Virus record (IMG/VR): IMGVR_UViG_3300020160_000064
Location: 1 to 30,281 of that record
Strand: one strand, 5' to 3'
DNA from: a virus
DNA: 30,281 nucleotides
Both the position numbers and the translations under genes were made by a program. Position 1 is the first letter of the stretch; each line of letters starts with the position of its first letter. A model generated the notes under the pieces. It was not told the origin of the DNA. It did not search any database and was given only the letters and a program-made list of their open reading frames with translations. Below are positions 16,266 to 24,644 of this stretch, piece after piece.

Positions 16266-17228
16266 ATGACAGTAACAATTAACGGTACAACGGGCATTGC
16301 CAATGATGGCGGCTACACAGGTGACGGTGTAGTCTTTGCCGATACAACCCCTGCGAATACGCTGGTGACTACTACTAGCGGCAACGTGGGTATTGGGACG
16401 AGTTCGCCTGCTGCAAAGCTGCACGTTGTTTCTGATGCGACAACCACCGCACTTATTCAGTCCTCTGCTGCGGCAACTACCCTCGCAATTAACAACACTA
16501 ACGCCAGCGCTTGGGGCAGCAACCTTGCAATTAGAACTGGCGGCGTTGATGCTGGCTACTTTGGAACAATTGGCTCTTTGCTTGGCAGCACTTCGCAAGA
16601 CCTTACTGTTTATGCAACGGCTGGCAATGGCTTCCGTGTCTACACAAACGGCAACAACGAACGCGCCCGTATCGACTCCAGCGGTAACTTGCTGGTGGGG
16701 ACGACGAGCCAAGTTGCGTCTGCTTTAATTACCAATAACGGCTCATATTCTCAAAACGGCAACCAGATGAATTTTGCTTCTGGTTCATCTACCATTGAGT
16801 TTGTCAACAGATCTACTGGTGCAAAAACATTTAGTTGGTATTACGGTTCTGCTGGAGGCGGATCTCCTGCAACTCTGTCTACATCTGGGGTTTGGACTAA
16901 CGCATCTGATGCTCGCGGCAAAGAAAACATTACCGACATTGGTTATGGCTTAAATACTGTTTTGTCAATGCAAGCACGACAGTACGATGTAAATTCAGAT
17001 GAAAGCCATGCGATTGGTTTTATCGCTCAAGAATTGTTGCCGATTATTCCAGAGGTGGTTCATGTAACAAGAACAGATGAACATGGTGACGATTGGTATG
17101 GTGTTGATTACGGCTCAATTGCAGCAGTTTTGGTCAAAGCCATCCAAGAACAGCAAGCCATCATCACCGCCCTGACCGCCCGAGTCACTGCACTGGACGC
17201 TCGTTTAACCTCGCTGGAAGGAGCATAA
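16266..17228 (+). CDS. tail fibre or spike protein with C-terminal S74 intramolecular chaperone
   Basis: 320 residues. The N-terminal part has fibre-type sequence (TSGNVGIGTSSPAAKLHV, RARIDSSGNLLVGTTS). The C-terminus, from about residue 208, is a Peptidase_S74 self-cleaving trimerisation chaperone: SDARGKENI (S214, K219 of the expected Ser-Lys dyad), IGFIAQEL..IIPEVV and YGVDYGSIAAVLVKAIQEQQ. A final coiled coil follows (ITALTARVTALDARLTSLEG). The chaperone would cleave just before S214 after folding the trimeric fibre. The gene starts 9 bases after the long fibre, with AAGGGAA before ATG 16266. The presence of its own chaperone suggests it forms a separate fibre tip. Confidence 0.9.
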   Translation: MTVTINGTTGIANDGGYTGDGVVFADTTPANTLVTTTSGNVGIGTSSPAAKLHVVSDATTTALIQSSAAATTLAINNTNASAWGSNLAIRTGGVDAGYFGTIGSLLGSTSQDLTVYATAGNGFRVYTNGNNERARIDSSGNLLVGTTSQVASALITNNGSYSQNGNQMNFASGSSTIEFVNRSTGAKTFSWYYGSAGGGSPATLSTSGVWTNASDARGKENITDIGYGLNTVLSMQARQYDVNSDESHAIGFIAQELLPIIPEVVHVTRTDEHGDDWYGVDYGSIAAVLVKAIQEQQAIITALTARVTALDARLTSLEGA

Positions 17229-17229
17229 A

Positions 17230-17517
17230 TTGTCAAAAATCGCATTATCAGGCAACGCCAGCGGCACAGGTACGCTGACCATTGCTGCCCCTAACACCAA
17301 CACTGACCGCACACTATCACTGCCTGACGCTGCAGGTACACTGTTTGTATCTGGACAAGCTATGTCAGCTAGTACAGTGAGCATTGGTGCTGGATGGACC
17401 ATTGAACAGTCTGGTACAGATCTGCTGTTTAAATACGGTGGAACATCTGTATTCAAAATTACATCGGCAGGTGCCATCGTAGCTAAAGATAACGTTACAG
17501 CCTACGGCACGGTGTAA
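17230..17517 (+). CDS. small tail fibre-type protein with TTG start, 95 aa
   Basis: The start codon is TTG 17230, supported by a very strong Shine-Dalgarno GGAAGGAG (17216-17223) located in the end of the preceding gene. The protein begins (M)SKIALSGNASGTGTLTIAAP and contains TNTDRTLSLPDAAGTLFVSG, a module seen in many phage fibres, often at the N-terminal or tip-proximal part. It continues with IGAGWTIEQSGTDLLFKYGG and ends NVTAYGTV. The short length suggests an independent fibre segment or a module that has been separated from a longer fibre. It probably assembles with the neighbouring fibre gene products (inference). Confidence 0.75.
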   Translation: MSKIALSGNASGTGTLTIAAPNTNTDRTLSLPDAAGTLFVSGQAMSASTVSIGAGWTIEQSGTDLLFKYGGTSVFKITSAGAIVAKDNVTAYGTV

Positions 17518-17519
17518 GC

Positions 17520-18425
17520 ATGGCATTACCGTCATCTGGTGCTATTTCATTTTCACAGATCAACACTGAGTTGGGTCTGTCTTCGACTGCACAGATCAGC
17601 CTAAACGACAGCGTGGTGCGTACTTTGTTCGGCAAGGCCAGCGGTGCCATCACTATGAGCGATGGTTATGGCAAGGCCAACCAGTTTGCGTTTACAATCT
17701 CCAGCAATCAAACCAATGCAAACCTTCGCACGTTGGCTGTCAACGCTGGATGGGACCAGTCTAGCAAAGTTGTTGCCACAATTGGATCAGGTGTTTACAT
17801 CTCCAGTAACAGTACAGCAACGCCAGCCCTTATAATCAACGGGTCATTCCCCGGTGGTGTTGAGCTTGTGAATAACGGGTTCATCGTTGGTATGGGTGGT
17901 GCTGGTGGTGGCGGTGGTGGTGACTATCGGCAACCGCCGTACTCAAACTACGGCCAAGGCGGTTTCGGGGGCGGGCTTGCGCTGTCTGTCAGTGCTGGCG
18001 TTTCTATCAATAACGCAGGAACTGTCGCAGGTGGCGGCGGTGGTGGCGGTGGTGGCGGCTGTGGATCTAATGCTGGCGTTATTAGTCCGGCTGGAGGTGG
18101 TGGTGGCGGTAGGACGGGTCTTACCAACTCAGCAGGTGGAGTCAGGGGCTACGTGGCTGGGTCTTCTGGAGGATCAGCGGGTGCTGCGGGTACCTCATCT
18201 GGTCCCGGCGCAGGTGGCGGCGGCGGCACTGCTGGTAACGCCAAAGATAATAATCAATCAACAGGTGGGTCTGGAGGGTCTGGCGGTGGCTGGGGTGCAG
18301 GCGGAGCAGGCGGGTCTTATGCCAGCATTTACGGCGGCGCAGGCGGCAGCGCAGGAGCGGCGGTATCTGGCAACGGTAACATCACATGGGTGGCAACAGG
18401 AACACGTTTAGGAGCAATTTCATGA
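17520..18425 (+). CDS. tail fibre adhesin with glycine-rich (polyglycine-type) domain
   Basis: 301 residues beginning MALPSSGAISFSQINTELGL. The N-terminal module (SSTAQISLNDSVVRTLFGKA, SGAITMSDGYGKA; residues 1-55) is common in phage fibre proteins. A beta domain follows (about 56-125; GSGVYISSNSTATPALIING). The C-terminal half is dominated by glycine runs (GGAGGGGGG, GGGGGGGGG, GGSGGSGGGWGAGGAGG) between variable loops. This resembles the gp38-type adhesins of T-even-like phages, where glycine-rich helices pack as a sandwich presenting receptor-binding loops. I infer that it is the host-range determinant. The stop overlaps the next start as ATGA. Confidence 0.8.
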   Translation: MALPSSGAISFSQINTELGLSSTAQISLNDSVVRTLFGKASGAITMSDGYGKANQFAFTISSNQTNANLRTLAVNAGWDQSSKVVATIGSGVYISSNSTATPALIINGSFPGGVELVNNGFIVGMGGAGGGGGGDYRQPPYSNYGQGGFGGGLALSVSAGVSINNAGTVAGGGGGGGGGGCGSNAGVISPAGGGGGGRTGLTNSAGGVRGYVAGSSGGSAGAAGTSSGPGAGGGGGTAGNAKDNNQSTGGSGGSGGGWGAGGAGGSYASIYGGAGGSAGAAVSGNGNITWVATGTRLGAIS

Positions 18426-18724
18426 GCATTGAATATACATACGAGATCGTCAACGTTGACGAATCAGCCCGTTGCATGGAGGTCGTCTATTCTGCATCTG
18501 GTCATCAGACCATGCACATTGGCGCACGACTGCCGTTTGAGGGCGAGTCGCTTGAGGATGTCATCAAAGCGTTCGCTCCTGTACCGCTGTGGCTTGAGTT
18601 GGCGCGACCAGTTCAGGTTCCTATGGTTGGTGTGCAGGGCACTGTTGCTCCAGATCCAGAGCCTGAGCCGACTGTTCAATCCGTTGGAACAAACACCGTA
18701 GTCATCGATGAGGTGGTGCTGTGA
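18422..18724 (+). CDS. small protein coupled to the glycine-rich adhesin, possible fibre assembly factor, 100 aa
   Basis: The start at ATG 18422 overlaps the adhesin stop (ATGA) and is preferred to an in-frame ATG at 18386 inside that gene. The product begins MSIEYTYEIVNVDESARCME and contains HQTMHIGARLPFEGESLEDV, followed by an acidic, proline-rich segment (APDPEPEPTVQSV) and a short C-terminal strand. Proteins of this size directly after phage adhesins are often fibre chaperones or assembly factors, so this is a plausible role by context. I do not recognise a defined family. The next gene begins with GTG overlapping its stop codon. Confidence 0.65.
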   Translation: MSIEYTYEIVNVDESARCMEVVYSASGHQTMHIGARLPFEGESLEDVIKAFAPVPLWLELARPVQVPMVGVQGTVAPDPEPEPTVQSVGTNTVVIDEVVL

Positions 18725-19233
18725 AACACCAGCGGCACGAAGTCTTTGGCTGGGTAATCCACAAAGGGACTGCCGATGCCGGGGAGCAGTTTGACATTGA
18801 GGTTCGTCGTGAGGCGGCACATCACCGTCTCTCAGCACAAACCCTATATACAAAGGGTCGAATCACTGGTCATCAAGATGGTGACTCCAACACTCCAGCA
18901 GCTACTCGCGTGGTTGGTTTTGGCAACGACATGCTACCGAACCCTGTGCCTTCAGTGACCATGAAGATGACTGTTCAGGAAGACGCTGAGTGGTGGTGCG
19001 TGAGTGTTCCATCAAACAAGTCTCTTCCGGCGGTTGAGTACATCCGGCTGCAACCCGGAGAAAGTATGCCTGTCGCCAACGGCAACTTAATCTTTGTGTG
19101 TTCCGGTAGCGCAAGCTTCTCGGGCAACAACGTAGACAGTCCAGTCGCAGTCCGAGTGTCGAACGCATCAGACTTGCTGGCCGTTGATGCGCCGGTTTAT
19201 GCAATGCGGTTTGACCGCGAAAACGTTGCCTAA
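18721..19233 (+). CDS. hypothetical cupin/jelly-roll-like protein, 170 aa
   Basis: It starts with GTG 18721, overlapping the previous stop (GTGA). The protein begins (M)KHQRHEVFGWVIHKGTADAG and has beta-rich segments. The C-terminal part, EYIRLQPGESMPVANGNLIF followed by VCSGSASFSG and a closing APVYAMRFDREN, resembles the rhythm of a cupin barrel, although the usual cupin metal histidines are not evident. It could be a virion protein or a small-molecule-binding protein. The gene ends five bases before the first desaturase, so it may belong functionally either to the fibre genes or to the desaturase cassette. No confident family call is possible. Confidence 0.55.
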   Translation: MKHQRHEVFGWVIHKGTADAGEQFDIEVRREAAHHRLSAQTLYTKGRITGHQDGDSNTPAATRVVGFGNDMLPNPVPSVTMKMTVQEDAEWWCVSVPSNKSLPAVEYIRLQPGESMPVANGNLIFVCSGSASFSGNNVDSPVAVRVSNASDLLAVDAPVYAMRFDRENVA

Positions 19234-19238
19234 TTAAC

Positions 19239-19973
19239 ATGTACCGTGTAGACATTTTCCACATGACCAAGAACTCTGCAAACGTGTTCTACTTGGTGGG
19301 CGCTATTGCACTTGTGGCTGGTCTTATGCAGGGAAGTTATCAATGGGCTTGGGTTTCGCTCTTTGTTCACGTTTTGGCTATTTCACTGTTCTCGGCTGTT
19401 GTTCACCGATACTTCTGTCACAAAGCTTTTGAAGCCAACAAAGACTTCATGTGGGTGCTGTCGATCATTCCCACGATCTACAACTACGCCACACCGCTTC
19501 AATGGGCGGTTATGCACTCTGCACATCACGCCTATGCAGACACCGACAAAGATCCCCACCTTAAGGGGTGGAAGGGTGTGTTTACAGCCACGTATCGCAA
19601 CCCGCCGCCTCGTCACTTGGTGGCAACAAAGTGGTTCCGTGACGGCAAGCATGAAGCTTTGTTCAATTACTCGGTGCTGCTCATCATTGTTTGGAACTTG
19701 ATCTTGCTCAGCGTCTCAGTTGATGCGATGATCTGGATTGGGCTTGTGCCGATGTTCACCCTGTCGCTCGCAAATGGTCTGCACAGGGCGTTCAGCCATT
19801 CAAGTGGTAAAGCAACAAACCGCTGGTACTTAGAGTTCTTTGCCCCGATGGGTGGTGAGTGGATTCATGACGATCATCATGACAACGCTCGCAAGCCCGT
19901 CTATGCGAACAAGTGGTATGAGATTGATACCGGTGGATTCTTCATTTGGCTATTGAGAAAGAGGGCCATCTGA
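19239..19973 (+). CDS. membrane fatty acid desaturase 1 (acyl-CoA/lipid desaturase family)
   Basis: 244 residues of the type 1 membrane fatty acid desaturase family, which uses a di-iron centre to introduce a double bond into acyl chains. The histidine boxes are HRYFCH (56-61), HSAHH (93-97) and HDDHH (210-214), with an extra H187 in AFSHS that fits the additional metal ligand. Four hydrophobic segments (about 15-30, 36-53, 144-160, 163-180) fit the usual membrane topology. The protein is shorter than typical bacterial members (about 300 or more), mostly at the N-terminus. No fused electron donor domain is seen, so host ferredoxin or similar would be needed. A second start is possible at 19263. 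The TGA overlaps the next ATG as TGATG. Confidence 0.88.
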   Translation: MYRVDIFHMTKNSANVFYLVGAIALVAGLMQGSYQWAWVSLFVHVLAISLFSAVVHRYFCHKAFEANKDFMWVLSIIPTIYNYATPLQWAVMHSAHHAYADTDKDPHLKGWKGVFTATYRNPPPRHLVATKWFRDGKHEALFNYSVLLIIVWNLILLSVSVDAMIWIGLVPMFTLSLANGLHRAFSHSSGKATNRWYLEFFAPMGGEWIHDDHHDNARKPVYANKWYEIDTGGFFIWLLRKRAI

Positions 19974-20719
19974 TGCGCGGTGGCATTTTTAAGATGTTTG
20001 TTCTGGTGCCAGTCATGACCTTGCTGGTCTTATGGCACATGTTCACAAGTGATAACTGGCTGATGACGCTATTGGTCGGCTTTGCATTGTACTTCCCCAT
20101 TCACCAACTTGGGCAAAGTGCAGGCTACCACAAACTGTTTGCACACAGGGCATTTAAACCGGTGCGTTGGTACCCACCTGTTGCTACGGCAATCGCATCA
20201 ATCAGCTTTTTTGGCGACCCACTTCGATCAGCGATGATTCACCGTCTGCATCACAGGCACCCTGATACCGAGCGTGATCCGCACAGTCCGATCCACGGAC
20301 GTTTCCACGCTTACATGGGCTGGCTATTGACGTGGAAGCCATCACCACGTGATGCAGCAGCGGTGGCTGATTTACTGCGTGAGTACCCGTGGATGGGACC
20401 GTTTCGCAAAGTGGAGTGGATGGTGCCAGTAATATTTCACAGCGCAATGTTCATCTTCACAGACTGGCTCTTTTACCCTGTTGCACTGGCTTGTCTGCTT
20501 TCCATTCAGAACGGGTTGCTGCTCAATGCATTTTCGCACTCGCCAAGTCTGCCCGGTAAAAACAAAGCAATCGACAGTGTGTGGCTTGCTGCGCTGTTTA
20601 ATCCAATTTTTCTGCACCGCCGCCATCACGAGAATGGTGGGTTGGTTGATTACTCGCATGGACGAGTTCATGACTATTGGGCGTTGGCTATTCGCAGGGT
20701 GCTGGAGCAAAAACCATGA
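19973..20719 (+). CDS. membrane fatty acid desaturase 2 (divergent paralogue)
   Basis: ATG 19973 overlaps the previous stop (TGATG) and has AGAGGG (19960-19965) upstream; an in-frame TTG at 19946 is less likely. The 248-residue product has three histidine boxes, HKLFAH (53-58), HRLHH (90-94) and HRRHH (215-219), and the AFSHS motif (H189). All are in the order and spacing of the desaturase family. Hydrophobic segments are near 8-24, 28-46, 68-82 and 152-180. The boxes differ strongly from the neighbouring desaturase, so this is not a recent tandem duplication. Different substrates or positions on the acyl chain, or a heteromeric complex, are possible (inference). Its stop overlaps the next gene as ATGA. 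Confidence 0.87.
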   Translation: MRGGIFKMFVLVPVMTLLVLWHMFTSDNWLMTLLVGFALYFPIHQLGQSAGYHKLFAHRAFKPVRWYPPVATAIASISFFGDPLRSAMIHRLHHRHPDTERDPHSPIHGRFHAYMGWLLTWKPSPRDAAAVADLLREYPWMGPFRKVEWMVPVIFHSAMFIFTDWLFYPVALACLLSIQNGLLLNAFSHSPSLPGKNKAIDSVWLAALFNPIFLHRRHHENGGLVDYSHGRVHDYWALAIRRVLEQKP

Positions 20720-21411
20720 TTCATACCCATGCACATGATGCAGATACAGACAAGTATGTTTACGACACCGGTCTGAATTTTGGTGTCGATTTTGGTTTGA
20801 AGCTGCTTGACATGGCGCTCAACAATCTCAACATGTTCCCACGGCGTAGCAATTTCAAGAAGCCTGATGACCCAGTTGATATGACCAAACTCATCGGCGC
20901 TCGAAAGACTCGTGAGCTTCTTCGTCGGATGCGGCAAATTGATCAACAGTCGAATGGATTAACACCCATTCAGTTTTCTCAGCACTTCTTCCCAGAAGAT
21001 CTTGGGCGGGAGATTGTTAGCTTAGCGCCACAGTGGTTGCAAGATATATCACCGGGAGAGCCATCCCCGATGCTTCAAGTTTCCAGCAACGGAGACTATC
21101 TTGGTACTCACAAAGGACACAAGCGTAGAGCCTCGCTGTTTATGTTGCTTCAAGGCAGTGGACAAGAAACCCGCTGGTATCGCAACACAGAAGATTTTGA
21201 AGTTATTGATCCGTTGCGAATTCCTGACCACGATAAAATAGAACATGTGGTGACTGCGGTGATGCAGCCATTTCGTTGGTATGTCTTCAATCATTTCGAG
21301 TGGCACTCAGTCCATAACTTCGCGCAGGGCAGTGTACGAATCAACATGGGTTTGGACTTTAATAACATTACTGCTCCAGAGCTTGTTGCAAAAATTAAAG
21401 AACACGCATGA
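20716..21411 (+). CDS. putative 2-oxoglutarate/Fe(II) oxygenase-like protein with HxG in place of HxD
   Basis: 231 residues from ATG 20716 (ATGA overlap); a longer in-frame start at 20677 lies inside the desaturase gene. The C-terminal half has the strand pattern of a double-stranded beta-helix oxygenase: THKGHKRRASLFMLLQG (H132), ETRWYRN, RWYVFNHFEWHSVHNF (H197) and GSVRINMGLDF (R208). In phage 2OG oxygenases as I remember them, the first strand reads HxDxxRxxSLxxxL; here the Asp position is Gly134. His135 or His200 could alternatively supply a ligand. The N-terminal 110 residues are helical and of unknown role. The substrate is unknown. Coupling to two desaturases suggests a lipid, but a protein target is possible. 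Confidence 0.6.
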   Translation: MIHTHAHDADTDKYVYDTGLNFGVDFGLKLLDMALNNLNMFPRRSNFKKPDDPVDMTKLIGARKTRELLRRMRQIDQQSNGLTPIQFSQHFFPEDLGREIVSLAPQWLQDISPGEPSPMLQVSSNGDYLGTHKGHKRRASLFMLLQGSGQETRWYRNTEDFEVIDPLRIPDHDKIEHVVTAVMQPFRWYVFNHFEWHSVHNFAQGSVRINMGLDFNNITAPELVAKIKEHA

Positions 21412-21629
21412 CTGAAACCAAAACACGCACAATTGTTAGAGCAATCAGTTATCGCATTACAGCGTGGTTGTTCACTATTTTTTGGACATGGCTTTTTACT
21501 GGTGACCTACTAAAAAGCGCTGGATTTGCTTCGGCACTGCATGTTCTACTGACGGTTGATTACTACTTTCACGAACGTATATGGTTGCGTGTTCGATGGG
21601 GCATGACACATGCACAACAATCACAATGA
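21408..21629 (+). CDS. DUF2061-family small membrane protein, 73 aa
   Basis: ATG 21408 overlaps the previous stop (ATGA). The protein begins MTETKTRTIVRAISYRITAW, followed by a hydrophobic segment (LFTIFWTWLFTG) and a second one (SAGFASALHVLLTVDYYFHE), then RIWLRVRWG. The pattern RxxxRAxSYRxxA...D...YYxHERxW is how I recognise DUF2061, a family of short predicted membrane proteins of unknown function, found alone or fused to other domains in bacteria. Two transmembrane helices are likely. It is the last member of the coupled desaturase cassette and may support the membrane enzymes (inference). A gap with a promoter-like element follows. Confidence 0.8.
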   Translation: MTETKTRTIVRAISYRITAWLFTIFWTWLFTGDLLKSAGFASALHVLLTVDYYFHERIWLRVRWGMTHAQQSQ

Positions 21630-21635
21630 TATTTT

Positions 21636-21645
21636 TGTTATAACT
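21636..21645 (+). promoter_or_regulatory. putative extended -10 element before the last tail fibre gene
   Basis: TGTTATAACT (21636-21645) matches an extended -10 and includes the same GTTATAAC palindrome found before the long fibre gene. It lies 10 bases before ATG 21656, so a transcript starting at the usual distance would begin near 21651 with almost no leader and without the AAGGAAA binding site (21646-21652). No -35 is visible. Support is therefore weak. Confidence 0.25.
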
Positions 21646-21655
21646 AAGGAAAATT

Positions 21656-22795
21656 ATGAGCACTGTAAAAGCAAATTCATTCACTGACGCTTCAGGTGGC
21701 AGTAATGCTGTCCTGTACGGCGTAGCTGCTCCAGCGAACTCGATGGGCTTTCGCAACCGCATCATCAACGGTGCGATGGTGATCTCACAGAGAAACGGCA
21801 CAAGCAGCGTCAACGTACCCGGTACTTCGTATCCATATCAGATGGATCGTTTTTACTGTGGTGGCTTGAACGGTGTGGCAACTCCGTTTACGCTTCAGCA
21901 AGTCACGGATGCTCCCACGGGTTTTTCAAACTCTGTACGCATCACGGTAGCCAACACAGATGCACTGGGGAATGCTGCCACCGAGTACGGCTTTCAGACA
22001 ACGTTTGAGGCCAACAATACTTCCGACTTTAATTTGGGTACGGCTAACGCAATCACCGTAACTTTGAGCTTTTGGGCAAAATCCAGCCTGACTGGTACGT
22101 TCGGACTTGGTGTACGCAACGCGCCAACATTCAATCGCGCTTATGTTGCAACGTACACGATCAACAGTGCAAATACGTGGGAATTCAAAACGATCACGCT
22201 TCCGCTCGACACAACAGGGACTTGGAATAGCAGCGGCGCTAATGCCTCTTTAAACATTTCTTGGTCTCTGGGGGTTGGTGCAAATCTGCGCGGCACGGCC
22301 AACACATGGCAAGCTGGTGGCGCGGTTCAGACCAGTGGCTCTGTAAACCTTGTGTCCAACGCTGCCGCTACATGGCAGATCACCGGAGTCCAACTGGAAG
22401 CAGGGTCTGTTGCATCCCCGTTTGAGCGCAGGGACTACGGGCGTGAACTGATGATGTGCCAGCGTTATTACATCAAACTCGGAACCGATGGTGCTTCTTT
22501 TGCATCTTGGGGTAACGGTGTAGCAAACGCATCCAACTCAGTTCAGGGTTGTGTTGTGCGTTTACCTGTAACGATGCGTACTCAGCCTTCTGTAGATTTT
22601 TCAACACTTCGTGTGTATGACGGTCTTGGTGCTGCCGCAATTTCAAGCCTTTCATCAGTAACAGCTTTATCTAATTCCAATACCATCGGATTTGATGCGT
22701 CTTTGGGGTCTTCCACACTCACCGCCGGAAAGCCGGTAACAGTTCAAGCAAACAACTCAACATCTGGGTACATTGCTGCCTCTGCGGAGCTATAA
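21656..22795 (+). CDS. tail fibre / receptor-binding protein
   Basis: 379 residues beginning MSTVKANSFTDASGGSNAVL. The block GFRNRIINGAMVISQRNGTS (about residues 31-50) and the later WQITGVQLEAGSVASPFERR with DYGRELMMCQRYY (about 240-272) are hallmark segments of a widespread phage fibre architecture. Between them is a beta-sandwich resembling carbohydrate-binding modules (ITVTLSFWAKSSLTGTFGLG). The C-terminal 100 residues probably form the receptor-binding tip. AAGGAAAA lies before ATG 21656. The gene follows the desaturase cassette, so that cassette is enclosed by fibre genes on both sides. A small gene of fibre-assembly type follows. Confidence 0.88.
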   Translation: MSTVKANSFTDASGGSNAVLYGVAAPANSMGFRNRIINGAMVISQRNGTSSVNVPGTSYPYQMDRFYCGGLNGVATPFTLQQVTDAPTGFSNSVRITVANTDALGNAATEYGFQTTFEANNTSDFNLGTANAITVTLSFWAKSSLTGTFGLGVRNAPTFNRAYVATYTINSANTWEFKTITLPLDTTGTWNSSGANASLNISWSLGVGANLRGTANTWQAGGAVQTSGSVNLVSNAAATWQITGVQLEAGSVASPFERRDYGRELMMCQRYYIKLGTDGASFASWGNGVANASNSVQGCVVRLPVTMRTQPSVDFSTLRVYDGLGAAAISSLSSVTALSNSNTIGFDASLGSSTLTAGKPVTVQANNSTSGYIAASAEL

Positions 22796-22797
22796 AC

Positions 22798-22971
22798 ATG
22801 ACCGTTCAGTACAAACTGCAAATCGACAACTACACAGGCGAAGTTGGTTCGGTGACCATCATCGGGCAAAACATTTGCATACCCTTCAACCCTGAAAATT
22901 CAGACTACGCCGAGTACCTGAAGTGGCTTGAGGCTGGCAACACACCATTGCCTGCTGACGAACAAGGTTAA
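22798..22971 (+). CDS. small fibre-associated protein, 57 aa
   Basis: The gene starts two bases after the fibre stop. The product begins MTVQYKLQIDNYTGEVGSVT and ends with IPFNPENSDYAEYLKWLEAG followed by NTPLPADEQG. The phrase YxxYLKWLEAGNTPLPADE is very common at the end of tail fibre assembly-type proteins and in short independent proteins after phage fibre genes. It may act as a chaperone or cap for the preceding fibre. ATG at 22798 is the only sensible start. Confidence 0.75.
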   Translation: MTVQYKLQIDNYTGEVGSVTIIGQNICIPFNPENSDYAEYLKWLEAGNTPLPADEQG

Positions 22972-22973
22972 TC

Positions 22974-23180
22974 ATGGATAATATGATCGACCCTGTCGAA
23001 TACGGCAAACTAATCAGCACCGTTGACAACCTCACAAAGAAGGTTGACTCAATGGATGCTGACATTAAAGAACTCCTACAACTTGCTAATCAGAGCAAGG
23101 GTGGATTCTGGATGGGCATGACTGTCGCCTCCATCTTCGGAGGTGTTCTCACGTTTGTTGCGGAGCGTTTGTTGCGATGA
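22974..23180 (+). CDS. holin-like small membrane protein, 68 aa
   Basis: The product begins MDNMIDPVEYGKLISTVDNL and has an amphipathic coiled-coil part (TVDNLTKKVDSMDADIKELLQLAN, with heptad pattern). A single C-terminal transmembrane helix follows (FWMGMTVASIFGGVLTFVAE) and a basic end (RLLR). This coiled coil plus one membrane helix arrangement is like XhlA-type lysis accessory proteins and some single-helix holins. It is the first gene of a cluster of membrane proteins that leads to the spanins and the endolysin, so a role in membrane permeabilisation is likely. Its stop overlaps the next gene by ATGA. Confidence 0.7.
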   Translation: MDNMIDPVEYGKLISTVDNLTKKVDSMDADIKELLQLANQSKGGFWMGMTVASIFGGVLTFVAERLLR

Positions 23181-23680
23181 TTGGAATGTTGTTAGATCCA
23201 GAAGCAGCGCTTGACGCTGTAAACAAAGCAGTGTCGCTGGTCAAGAAAGCCAGCGCTACAGCCAACAGCGTGGAGGCATTGGCCCCTATGCTGGGTAAAT
23301 ACTTCGACGCTAAAGCCAATGCCATTGCTTCTGCTGAAGCGGCAAAGGCTGGAACGTTCGGTGGTTCTTCTATGGGCAAGGCTTTAGAGATTGAGCTTGC
23401 CATTGATTCACAGAAAGAGTTTGAAGAAGACTTGAAGCGTTTGTTCTGGAACGCTAACAAGATGGATGTGTGGCAGAAGATTAAAGCCCGTGCAACTGTG
23501 ATGGAAGCTGAAGCTGCTAAAGCTGCTGGCAAAGCCAAAGAAGACGCACGGCGCAAGAAACAAAAAGATCAAGAGGAACTTGAAACGGCCATTGCTGTAA
23601 TCATTTCCGTAGCGATCTTTTGCGGCCTGATGTGGGGTGGTTGGGAATTGTTCTCATTCTGCCGCAAGTACGGGTGCTAA
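23177..23680 (+). CDS. lysis-cassette protein with helical domain and C-terminal membrane anchor, 167 aa
   Basis: ATG 23177 overlaps the previous stop. The protein begins MIGMLLDPEAALDAVNKAVS and consists of Ala/Lys/Glu-rich helices (VKKASATANSVEALAPMLGK, then KARATVMEAEAAKAAGKAKE and DARRKKQKDQEE). It ends in one transmembrane helix (ETAIAVIISVAIFCGLMWGGW) and the short tail ELFSFCRKYGC. I have seen similar proteins between holin-like and spanin genes in aquatic phages, but the function is not known to me. It could be a holin accessory or antiholin (inference). The start of the next gene follows after four bases. Confidence 0.65.
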   Translation: MIGMLLDPEAALDAVNKAVSLVKKASATANSVEALAPMLGKYFDAKANAIASAEAAKAGTFGGSSMGKALEIELAIDSQKEFEEDLKRLFWNANKMDVWQKIKARATVMEAEAAKAAGKAKEDARRKKQKDQEELETAIAVIISVAIFCGLMWGGWELFSFCRKYGC

Positions 23681-23684
23681 CGAT

Positions 23685-23879
23685 GTGTGGAAGCTGCTCA
23701 AGTGGTTTGATGTTGGCGCAGACTGGAAGCTCGGGTTCGACCGTTTCCTTATTACCTGCTGCGCTCTCATCGTTGCCGACTGGGTGCTCGACATGCTCTA
23801 CGTTTTACCAGTTGACGACTCCAAGTCGCTAATTGAGTTTATAAAATCCCTTATACCATTAGGAGGTGGTGATGACTAA
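23685..23879 (+). CDS. small membrane protein of the lysis cassette, GTG start, about 65 aa
   Basis: The reading frame runs from an upstream in-frame GTG at 23637, but GTG 23685, just after the previous stop, is preferred. Another frame opens with ATG 23683, two bases earlier, but it gives a Cys/Ser-rich product without family-like features. The chosen product has VWKLLKWFDVGADWKLGFDR, a hydrophobic helix (FLITCCALIVADWVLDMLYVL) and an acidic end (GGGDD). One membrane helix is likely. It overlaps the following EF-hand gene by 8 bases, whose Shine-Dalgarno lies in its 3' end. The call rests on context and overlap. Confidence 0.55.
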   Translation: MWKLLKWFDVGADWKLGFDRFLITCCALIVADWVLDMLYVLPVDDSKSLIEFIKSLIPLGGGDD

Positions 23880-24195
23880 AGCACTTGAGAAAGATTCCAA
23901 GTATAATCAGTTCGATGTTGATGGTGACGGCGTTGTCACCGATGAAGAACTCAACCGATCTGAACGAATGATGATGATGGAGAACATGGATAAGCTTGCT
24001 GACCAGCAACGTGTCATGGCTTGGGTTGCGATGTTTATGCCATTTGCAATCATCATCTTTATGACTGCCCCCTTCATTGAACTCGACAAGGTGGCAGCAT
24101 TGATGGGTTTGGCTACTACATTCTGTGCAGCTATGGGCACCATCGTTGTTGCTTTCATGGCAGCTACTGCATACATTCGCGGGAAGATGGAGTGA
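23872..24195 (+). CDS. EF-hand membrane protein, holin-like, 107 aa
   Basis: ATG 23872 is chosen over the in-frame GTG 23866 because AGGAGG (23861-23866) is then correctly spaced. The product has a complete 12-residue EF-hand loop, DVDGDGVVTDEE (residues 15-26), with Asp at 1, 3 and 5 and Glu at 12, as needed for calcium binding. It then has two transmembrane segments (about 49-66 and 76-100) and a short basic end. Small phage membrane proteins combining one EF-hand and one or two helices occur near lysis genes and are suspected holins. Calcium-dependent control of hole formation is an attractive but unproven inference. The stop overlaps the next start (GTGA). Confidence 0.8.
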   Translation: MTKALEKDSKYNQFDVDGDGVVTDEELNRSERMMMMENMDKLADQQRVMAWVAMFMPFAIIIFMTAPFIELDKVAALMGLATTFCAAMGTIVVAFMAATAYIRGKME

Positions 24196-24644
24196 ATTAC
24201 TTCACCATCGCTTTAGTTGCTGCGTCATTCTCTGCAGGCTTTGCTGTGCAGGGTTGGCGCAAAGACGCTGTCATCAGTGAAATGGTGGCAGCACAATCTG
24301 TAGCGGTTGCCGCTGCAACAACAGAAGTGATGAATGACAACATTCGTTTACAGAAAAAGAAAGATGATGCCCTTGTACAAGCCAATCTCAAAGCTAAACA
24401 AAACGCTGACGCTGCCGCTGCTGCTAAGTCTCAGCTTGATTGGGTGCGGGACTACAACCAGCGTAGTGCCGCCGCCATCAGTACATCTACCTGCACTTCC
24501 GTTAGAGACTACGCCACAACCGTCAACACCGTATTCGGAGAATGTACGGTTGCTCTTGAAGAGTTGGCAAGAAAAGCTGACGGCCACGCCCTTGACGCAA
24601 ACACCCTAATTAAATCTTGGCCCACTAATAAGGAAACAAAATGA
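24192..24644 (+). CDS. Rz: i-spanin (Rz-like inner membrane spanin subunit)
   Basis: It starts with GTG 24192, overlapping the previous stop. The 150-residue protein has an N-terminal signal-anchor helix (FTIALVAASFSAGFAVQGW) followed by a long periplasmic coiled coil (VMNDNIRLQKKKDDALVQAN, LKAKQNADAAAAAKSQLDWV) and a C-terminal part with two Cys (STSTCTSVRDY, VFGECTV). This is the layout of Rz-type i-spanins, which join outer membrane lipoprotein partners to fuse the membranes at the last step of lysis. The partner Rz1 lies embedded in another frame of the same gene, as in lambda. The stop overlaps the endolysin start (ATGA). Confidence 0.85.
   Translation: MNYFTIALVAASFSAGFAVQGWRKDAVISEMVAAQSVAVAAATTEVMNDNIRLQKKKDDALVQANLKAKQNADAAAAAKSQLDWVRDYNQRSAAAISTSTCTSVRDYATTVNTVFGECTVALEELARKADGHALDANTLIKSWPTNKETK
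24364..24609 (+). CDS. Rz1: o-spanin (Rz1-like lipoprotein) embedded in Rz
   Basis: A different frame inside the Rz gene encodes a signal peptide (LNKTLTLPLLLSLSLIGC) with lipobox-like LIGC, then a proline-rich region (VVPPPSVHLPALPLETTPQP) and a short helical end. Such Pro-rich lipoproteins nested in Rz are typical o-spanins, attached to the inner leaflet of the outer membrane. The start at ATG 24364 gives Cys28 and a normal signal peptide of 27 residues; ATG 24367 and ATG 24334 are other options. The whole gene lies within Rz, as in the lambda arrangement. This indicates a Gram-negative host with an outer membrane. Confidence 0.82.
   Translation: MMPLYKPISKLNKTLTLPLLLSLSLIGCGTTTSVVPPPSVHLPALPLETTPQPSTPYSENVRLLLKSWQEKLTATPLTQTP

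Follow-up and report, generated by a model that had tools for sequence, protein, structure and literature searches.

A predicted desaturase–oxygenase cassette chained to adhesin genes in the fibre region of a freshwater phage

Why should a phage carry what look like lipid-modifying enzymes in the same gene chain as its tail-fibre adhesin? The question is raised by a freshwater phage represented by an IMG/VR record of 30,281 bases, the whole of which was analysed here (the window) and which is probably about half a genome. Its gene order is that of the late region in tailed phages, from terminase, portal and major capsid through tail and fibres to an endolysin. TerL is 81% identical to that of Manatee Spring phage MW202701 and 61–73% identical to those of the Roseobacter CRP phages and Puniceispirillum phage HMO-2011, identities that by sequence place the phage among the HMO-2011-type podoviruses.

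Seven closely packed genes on the plus strand lead from the adhesin to a DUF2061 gene (17520–21629). The chain opens with the glycine-rich tail-fibre adhesin (17520..18425; phrog_11439 tail fiber protein, 3.4e-6; phrog_10745, 2.4e-17), continues with a small protein of 100 residues (g100, 18422..18724, recognized from its sequence and from homologues at the matching position) and a 170-residue protein with a GTG start and a predicted bicupin fold (g170, 18721..19233, annotated from its AF2 model, VIA fold matches and synteny), and then enters the putative desaturases desA (244 residues, 19239..19973) and desB (248 residues, 19973..20719), a candidate AspH-like Fe(II)/2-oxoglutarate oxygenase (231 residues, 20716..21411) and the small DUF2061 membrane protein (73 residues, 21408..21629). 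An earlier note on this DNA had described the last four genes as joined by TGATG and ATGA overlaps, and rechecking the reading frames and junctions reproduced that description exactly: the desB ATG at 19973 lies within TGATG (19971–19975), the oxygenase ATG at 20716 within ATGA (20716–20719) and the DUF2061 ATG at 21408 within ATGA (21408–21411). Its upstream extension of the chain from the adhesin is equally correct, with ATGA at 18422 between adhesin and g100 and GTGA at 18721 between g100 and g170. The spacing from g170 to desA is 5 nt, and desA has an alternative in-frame ATG at 19263. A promoter search between the fibre genes and the cassette gave no signal above chance; judged from gene order, cassette expression would be late.

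Both desaturase candidates carry the three histidine boxes of the pattern HX3-4H, HX2-3HH, HX2-3HH, which read HRYFCH, HSAHH and HDDHH in desA and HKLFAH, HRLHHRHPDTERDPH (second box HRLHH) and HRRHH in desB. desA also has a GLHRxFSH-type motif, its box histidines are conserved in all nine aligned homologues, and each protein has three strong hydrophobic segments on the Kyte–Doolittle scale. A desA profile matches the stearoyl-CoA/acyl-CoA desaturases 4ymk (4e-8) and 4zyo (6.5e-8); the NCBIfam DesA-family match (3.7e-8) is weak and far under its cut-off. PF00487 (FA_desaturase) matches neither protein at E up to 1, nor anything else in the window record, and single-sequence Pfam searches returned no convincing match for desA, desB or the oxygenase. 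Boxes and segments, with the profile in the case of desA, indicate that desA and desB are membrane desaturases (SCD/DesC-like) with predicted activity, as the earlier note had read them. Homologues of desB at 52–67% occur in four related contigs (L002, L004, L007 and L008), and a second desaturase is a variable member across loci. Where their substrates are known, SCD-like membrane desaturases work on acyl chains, and a lipid substrate is likely for this pair.

The oxygenase was assigned through its AF2 model (pLDDT 88.5), in which a double-stranded beta-helix is predicted. VIA-align places it at Z about 11 to AspH (5jqy) and at Z 10–11.5 to many other 2OG oxygenases, whose substrates are many and varied. 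Family alignment identifies H132, G134, H135, H197 and R208 as invariant. The HxD/E triad is not obligatory for the Fe(II)/2OG oxygenase superfamily: AspH has a known two-His iron site. The halogenases WelO5 and BesD, both present among the fold matches here, have an HxG/HxA site in common. In its HxG (H132 and G134) the window protein is reminiscent of AspH, with its two-His site, and of some halogenases. Its likeness to the AspH-type oxygenases (PF05118) comprises the modelled double-stranded beta-helix, HxG in place of the common HxD/E...H triad, a distal histidine (H197) and an arginine 11 residues on (R208), a pattern that a two-His iron site would lead one to expect. It differs from them in sharing only about 12% identity with AspH in the structural alignment and in the failure of the PF05118 (Asp_Arg_Hydrox) HMM to match any of 13 family members, other Pfam models also falling below threshold. 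We accordingly describe the predicted fold as AspH-like and do not file the protein under PF05118, a family that also covers the lipid hydroxylases LpxO and OlsC; the fold supports the oxygenase-like identity proposed earlier, and a lipid substrate for the modelled enzyme is unproven. Sequence matches in the PDB to TAL effectors and an auxin-binding protein vanished when a profile was used.

This oxygenase appears, on sequence searches, to belong almost only to phages. Its single match in GTDB genomes (L096, PBPT01000016.1, a Neomarinimicrobiota MAG) lies on a contig that shares gene order with L013, a contig of a marine phage; the MAG therefore probably includes phage DNA of this kind, and we rejected the match as a bacterial oxygenase. 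Neither the oxygenase nor g170 has a match among 50,697 deposited phage records, and such chemistry is therefore unexplored in isolates.

The gene upstream of desA proved informative. The AF2 model of g170 (pLDDT 95.5) resembles a two-domain cupin (bicupin fold), with modest VIA scores to PA5104 (Z 9.6), the pirin YhhW (Z 9.5) and HutD (Z 8.9). An alignment of 25 bicupin sequences contains no conserved stretch, and a search with the window's own g170 alone found no relative. In the loci compared, g170 stands immediately 5' of a desaturase in at least 36 contigs besides the window. A reciprocal scan with a closer g170 alignment alone, which reaches only the g170 subgroup within that alignment, returned 23 contigs, mostly overlapping the earlier contig set, and a desaturase lies immediately downstream in all 23. 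The adhesin gene also precedes the cassette in L002, L004, L009, L029–L035 and L189–L198, and a g100 homologue occupies the corresponding place in L002, L004, L009, L029–L035 and others.

Scans of viral contigs for the oxygenase found 19 contigs with the single sequence and 32 with the alignment. In the close clade (22 contigs, 42–76% identity) a desaturase is nearby in 21 of the 21 testable contigs, L196 being excluded because it starts within the oxygenase; the background for this count is 379 desaturase relatives in 2.9 million contigs scanned. A more distant oxygenase in L028 also adjoins a desaturase. Ten marine contigs (36–44% identity) have no desaturase within the flanks examined, and in L013 the gene sits amid other 2OG-type oxygenases; the oxygenase is therefore not linked to lipid genes everywhere. 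Near-duplicate contigs (for example, L005/L006, L030/L031, L189/L190 and L197/L198) mean that the counts represent fewer independent events. Oxygenase and desaturase distances are correlated (Mantel r 0.57, p 0.0002). Rare co-occurrence, which the earlier note had named as fatal to its idea of one functional system, is thus not what is seen for desaturase with oxygenase or for bicupin with desaturase: both are stable genetic pairs.

The fourth gene behaves differently, and the proposal of four families as one fixed system does not hold. DUF2061 is firmly identified (PF09834, 4.9e-8, 33.7 bits against a cut-off of 23.1), and it directly follows the oxygenase in the window and in only 3 of the 22 related contigs (L001, L002 and L003), while 76 of 80 phage DUF2061 loci have no other cassette family within the DNA examined. 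It is an optional member of the cassette and a common independent phage gene; together with the variable second desaturase it gives some footing to the idea that four unrelated accessory genes merely chance to adjoin in an overlap chain. We consider that very improbable, given that desaturase and oxygenase are found together repeatedly, with close spacing kept across divergent phages and under purifying selection. Chance does not account for the cassette: many viral contigs have intact homologues arranged alike, and selection is purifying in the pairs examined. Outside the cassette, a QueE-like radical SAM gene precedes DUF2061 in 43 of about 80 phage loci (L101–L180). Bacterial DUF2061 genes have been connected with iron: in Caulobacter expression rises when iron is limiting and when fur is mutated (PMC3751524), and a Shewanella list of regulated genes related to iron includes one (PMC12442407). 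Such a link is suggestive beside three predicted iron enzymes.

How does the cassette move? Comparison by tblastn with MW202701 and CRP-345 delimits an exchangeable fibre/cassette block on the plus strand (16266..24640). The flanking genes match (TerL 81%, MCP 81%, endolysin 64%), the capsid genes being common to the window, MW202701 and CRP-345 and the endolysin match being to MW202701, whereas within the block the sole match in these relatives is to 52 residues of the first gene, and 17230–24640 has no counterpart in either. Since HMO-2011-type relatives at the capsid level are without the block, the cassette and the fibre genes are exchanged as a single segment. Some carriers have no match to the window TerL (a comparison with no positive control), and L005 (a fragment), L008 and L195 have none to the window capsid protein where the positive control matched. 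The block thus moves between unrelated phages along with the fibre genes, and the cassette is fibre-linked, as had been claimed. A 167-residue gene further downstream (23177–23680) has a 93% identical counterpart in L001, a contig with only about 29% identity in the capsid protein, and therefore records a recent gene exchange between different phages.

Where dN/dS could be estimated for the desaturases and oxygenases, in close pairs, it lies between 0 and 0.13; the cassette genes tested are under purifying selection and keep their predicted catalytic residues. Within some groups the desaturase is 94–99% identical and alleles of the adhesin, g100, g170 and oxygenase are reshuffled around it. 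Two near-identical loci, L029 and L032, differ chiefly in the C-terminal part of the adhesin and in the first oxygenase. Joint replacement of adhesin tip and oxygenase is seen in that pair and was rejected as a general pattern, the alleles showing no co-variation across 14 loci; a one-to-one match between adhesin and oxygenase is not favoured.

Phage desaturases are usually interpreted as stress-relief metabolic genes, and the dullest reading of the locus follows that line: ordinary AMGs whose desaturases merely raise host membrane fluidity, for cold or stress or for easier virion release, at a fibre site that is a recombination hot spot for accessory genes. Fibre regions are mosaic, and phage desaturases with such a proposed role are published (PMC7300359; Roitman 2018, as cited in PMC11480375). 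Desaturases also occur without these partners: an alignment scan of viral contigs with desA found 379 related contigs in 2.9 million, many of them without bicupin or oxygenase (the best 80 were examined). A scan with the single desA protein found nothing. Deposited phage records with desaturase matches comprise only Pelagibacter phage Mosig and contigs labelled as Acinetobacter phage, which we set aside because chromosome-type genes surround them; a search for cyanophage matches to these desaturases found none. Random hot-spot cargo, however, would not sit directly behind one and the same bicupin in 23 of 23 contigs, nor would all 21 testable contigs pair it with a single phage-restricted oxygenase, and we regard the AMG reading as somewhat unlikely. 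The consistent bicupin partnership, often with the oxygenase as well, ties the desaturases to the receptor-binding module across unrelated phages.

The likeliest explanation, to which we give even weight for and against, is that the receptor-binding (adhesin) module of the phage includes the cassette as a unit for modifying lipids and remodelling the envelope, which would act late on host acyl lipids. Its relatives in unrelated phages indicate that the desaturase co-travels with the receptor-binding module, which suggests host-envelope remodelling in receptor handling. As DesC/SCD-like enzymes, the desaturases would introduce double bonds into acyl-CoA or acyl-lipid chains of the host with host electron donors, no electron donor gene being noted in the cassette; the AspH-like oxygenase might then hydroxylate the same acyl chains or an attached head group. 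Lipids so altered would, at a late stage of infection, give the host cell a different surface or fluidity, the most plausible outcome being that progeny virions escape re-adsorption, or that the phage adjusts superinfection and lysis to whichever adhesin it uses. Phage lipid enzymes may, on such a scheme, serve adsorption or superinfection control. The most interesting reading of the adhesin tie goes further and is doubtful: the bicupin–desaturase–oxygenase set would be the adhesin's receptor-editing partner, altering an envelope lipid or lipid-linked receptor so that infected cells and debris stop capturing progeny. If true, receptor editing would constitute a lipid-based class of receptor-modifying system within phage fibre operons.

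Larger versions of the locus raise a different product. Six contigs (L001, L003 and L005–L008; for example, L007:2755-8523) combine the desaturase–oxygenase pair with a SPASM radical SAM gene, an oppositely oriented GNAT-like gene and several more 2OG-type oxygenases, and the best NCBIfam matches of the radical SAM protein, tested in L001 and L007, are peptide maturases. A second type has a PP-loop ATPase (SGGIDST motif) after the bicupin–desaturase pair, followed by GNAT or several 2OG oxygenase genes (L041:10829-11791, L043:10775-11710, L047:7682-8635, L064:10822-11775 and L072:10890-11837). The radical SAM relatives oblige us to weigh another product: the cassette could belong to a biosynthetic or protein-modification cluster, in which desaturase-type diiron enzymes and 2OG oxygenases, joined in larger versions by the SPASM radical SAM enzyme and the GNAT, would make a small molecule or a modified peptide, or would act on the adhesin or another virion part. 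Both types of extended locus, and the cluster beside the tail-fibre genes of Mosig, point that way. Yet the window cassette has neither radical SAM and GNAT genes nor a precursor-like gene beside it, the known SCD-like membrane desaturases have acyl chains as substrate, and the Asp_Arg_Hydrox proteins of Mosig escape the window's oxygenase profile; we judge such a cluster unlikely here.

Besides the AspH-type oxygenases, two known systems stand closest to the envelope-remodelling unit proposed here. Pelagibacter phage Mosig EXVC030M (MT647606) resembles it in a desaturase that adjoins an Asp_Arg_Hydrox gene, both within a cluster continuing into the tail-fibre genes; with its aminotransferase, GNAT and MoaA-like genes, that cluster holds many more biosynthetic genes than the window cassette, its hydroxylases escape the window's oxygenase profile, and a search there for a bicupin found none. 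The extended loci and Mosig therefore make the desaturase part of a wider theme, enzyme islands beside fibre genes. The earlier note knew of no described phage system of this composition, which stands for the combination, no fibre-bound bicupin–desaturase–oxygenase unit being described in the open-licence literature that we searched, and fails for desaturases alone, which are published phage genes: the phage-encoded fatty acid desaturase vFAD (PMC7300359) and the cyanophage lipid desaturases of Roitman 2018 (ISME J, as cited in PMC11480375), with host membrane fluidity as the proposed role. These share with the window a phage membrane desaturase with three histidine boxes and a stearoyl-CoA desaturase match, and the purifying selection reported for vFAD (PMC7300359) is seen in the window cassette too. 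Unlike them, the window has two predicted desaturases chained to an adhesin, a bicupin and a phage-restricted 2OG-type oxygenase.
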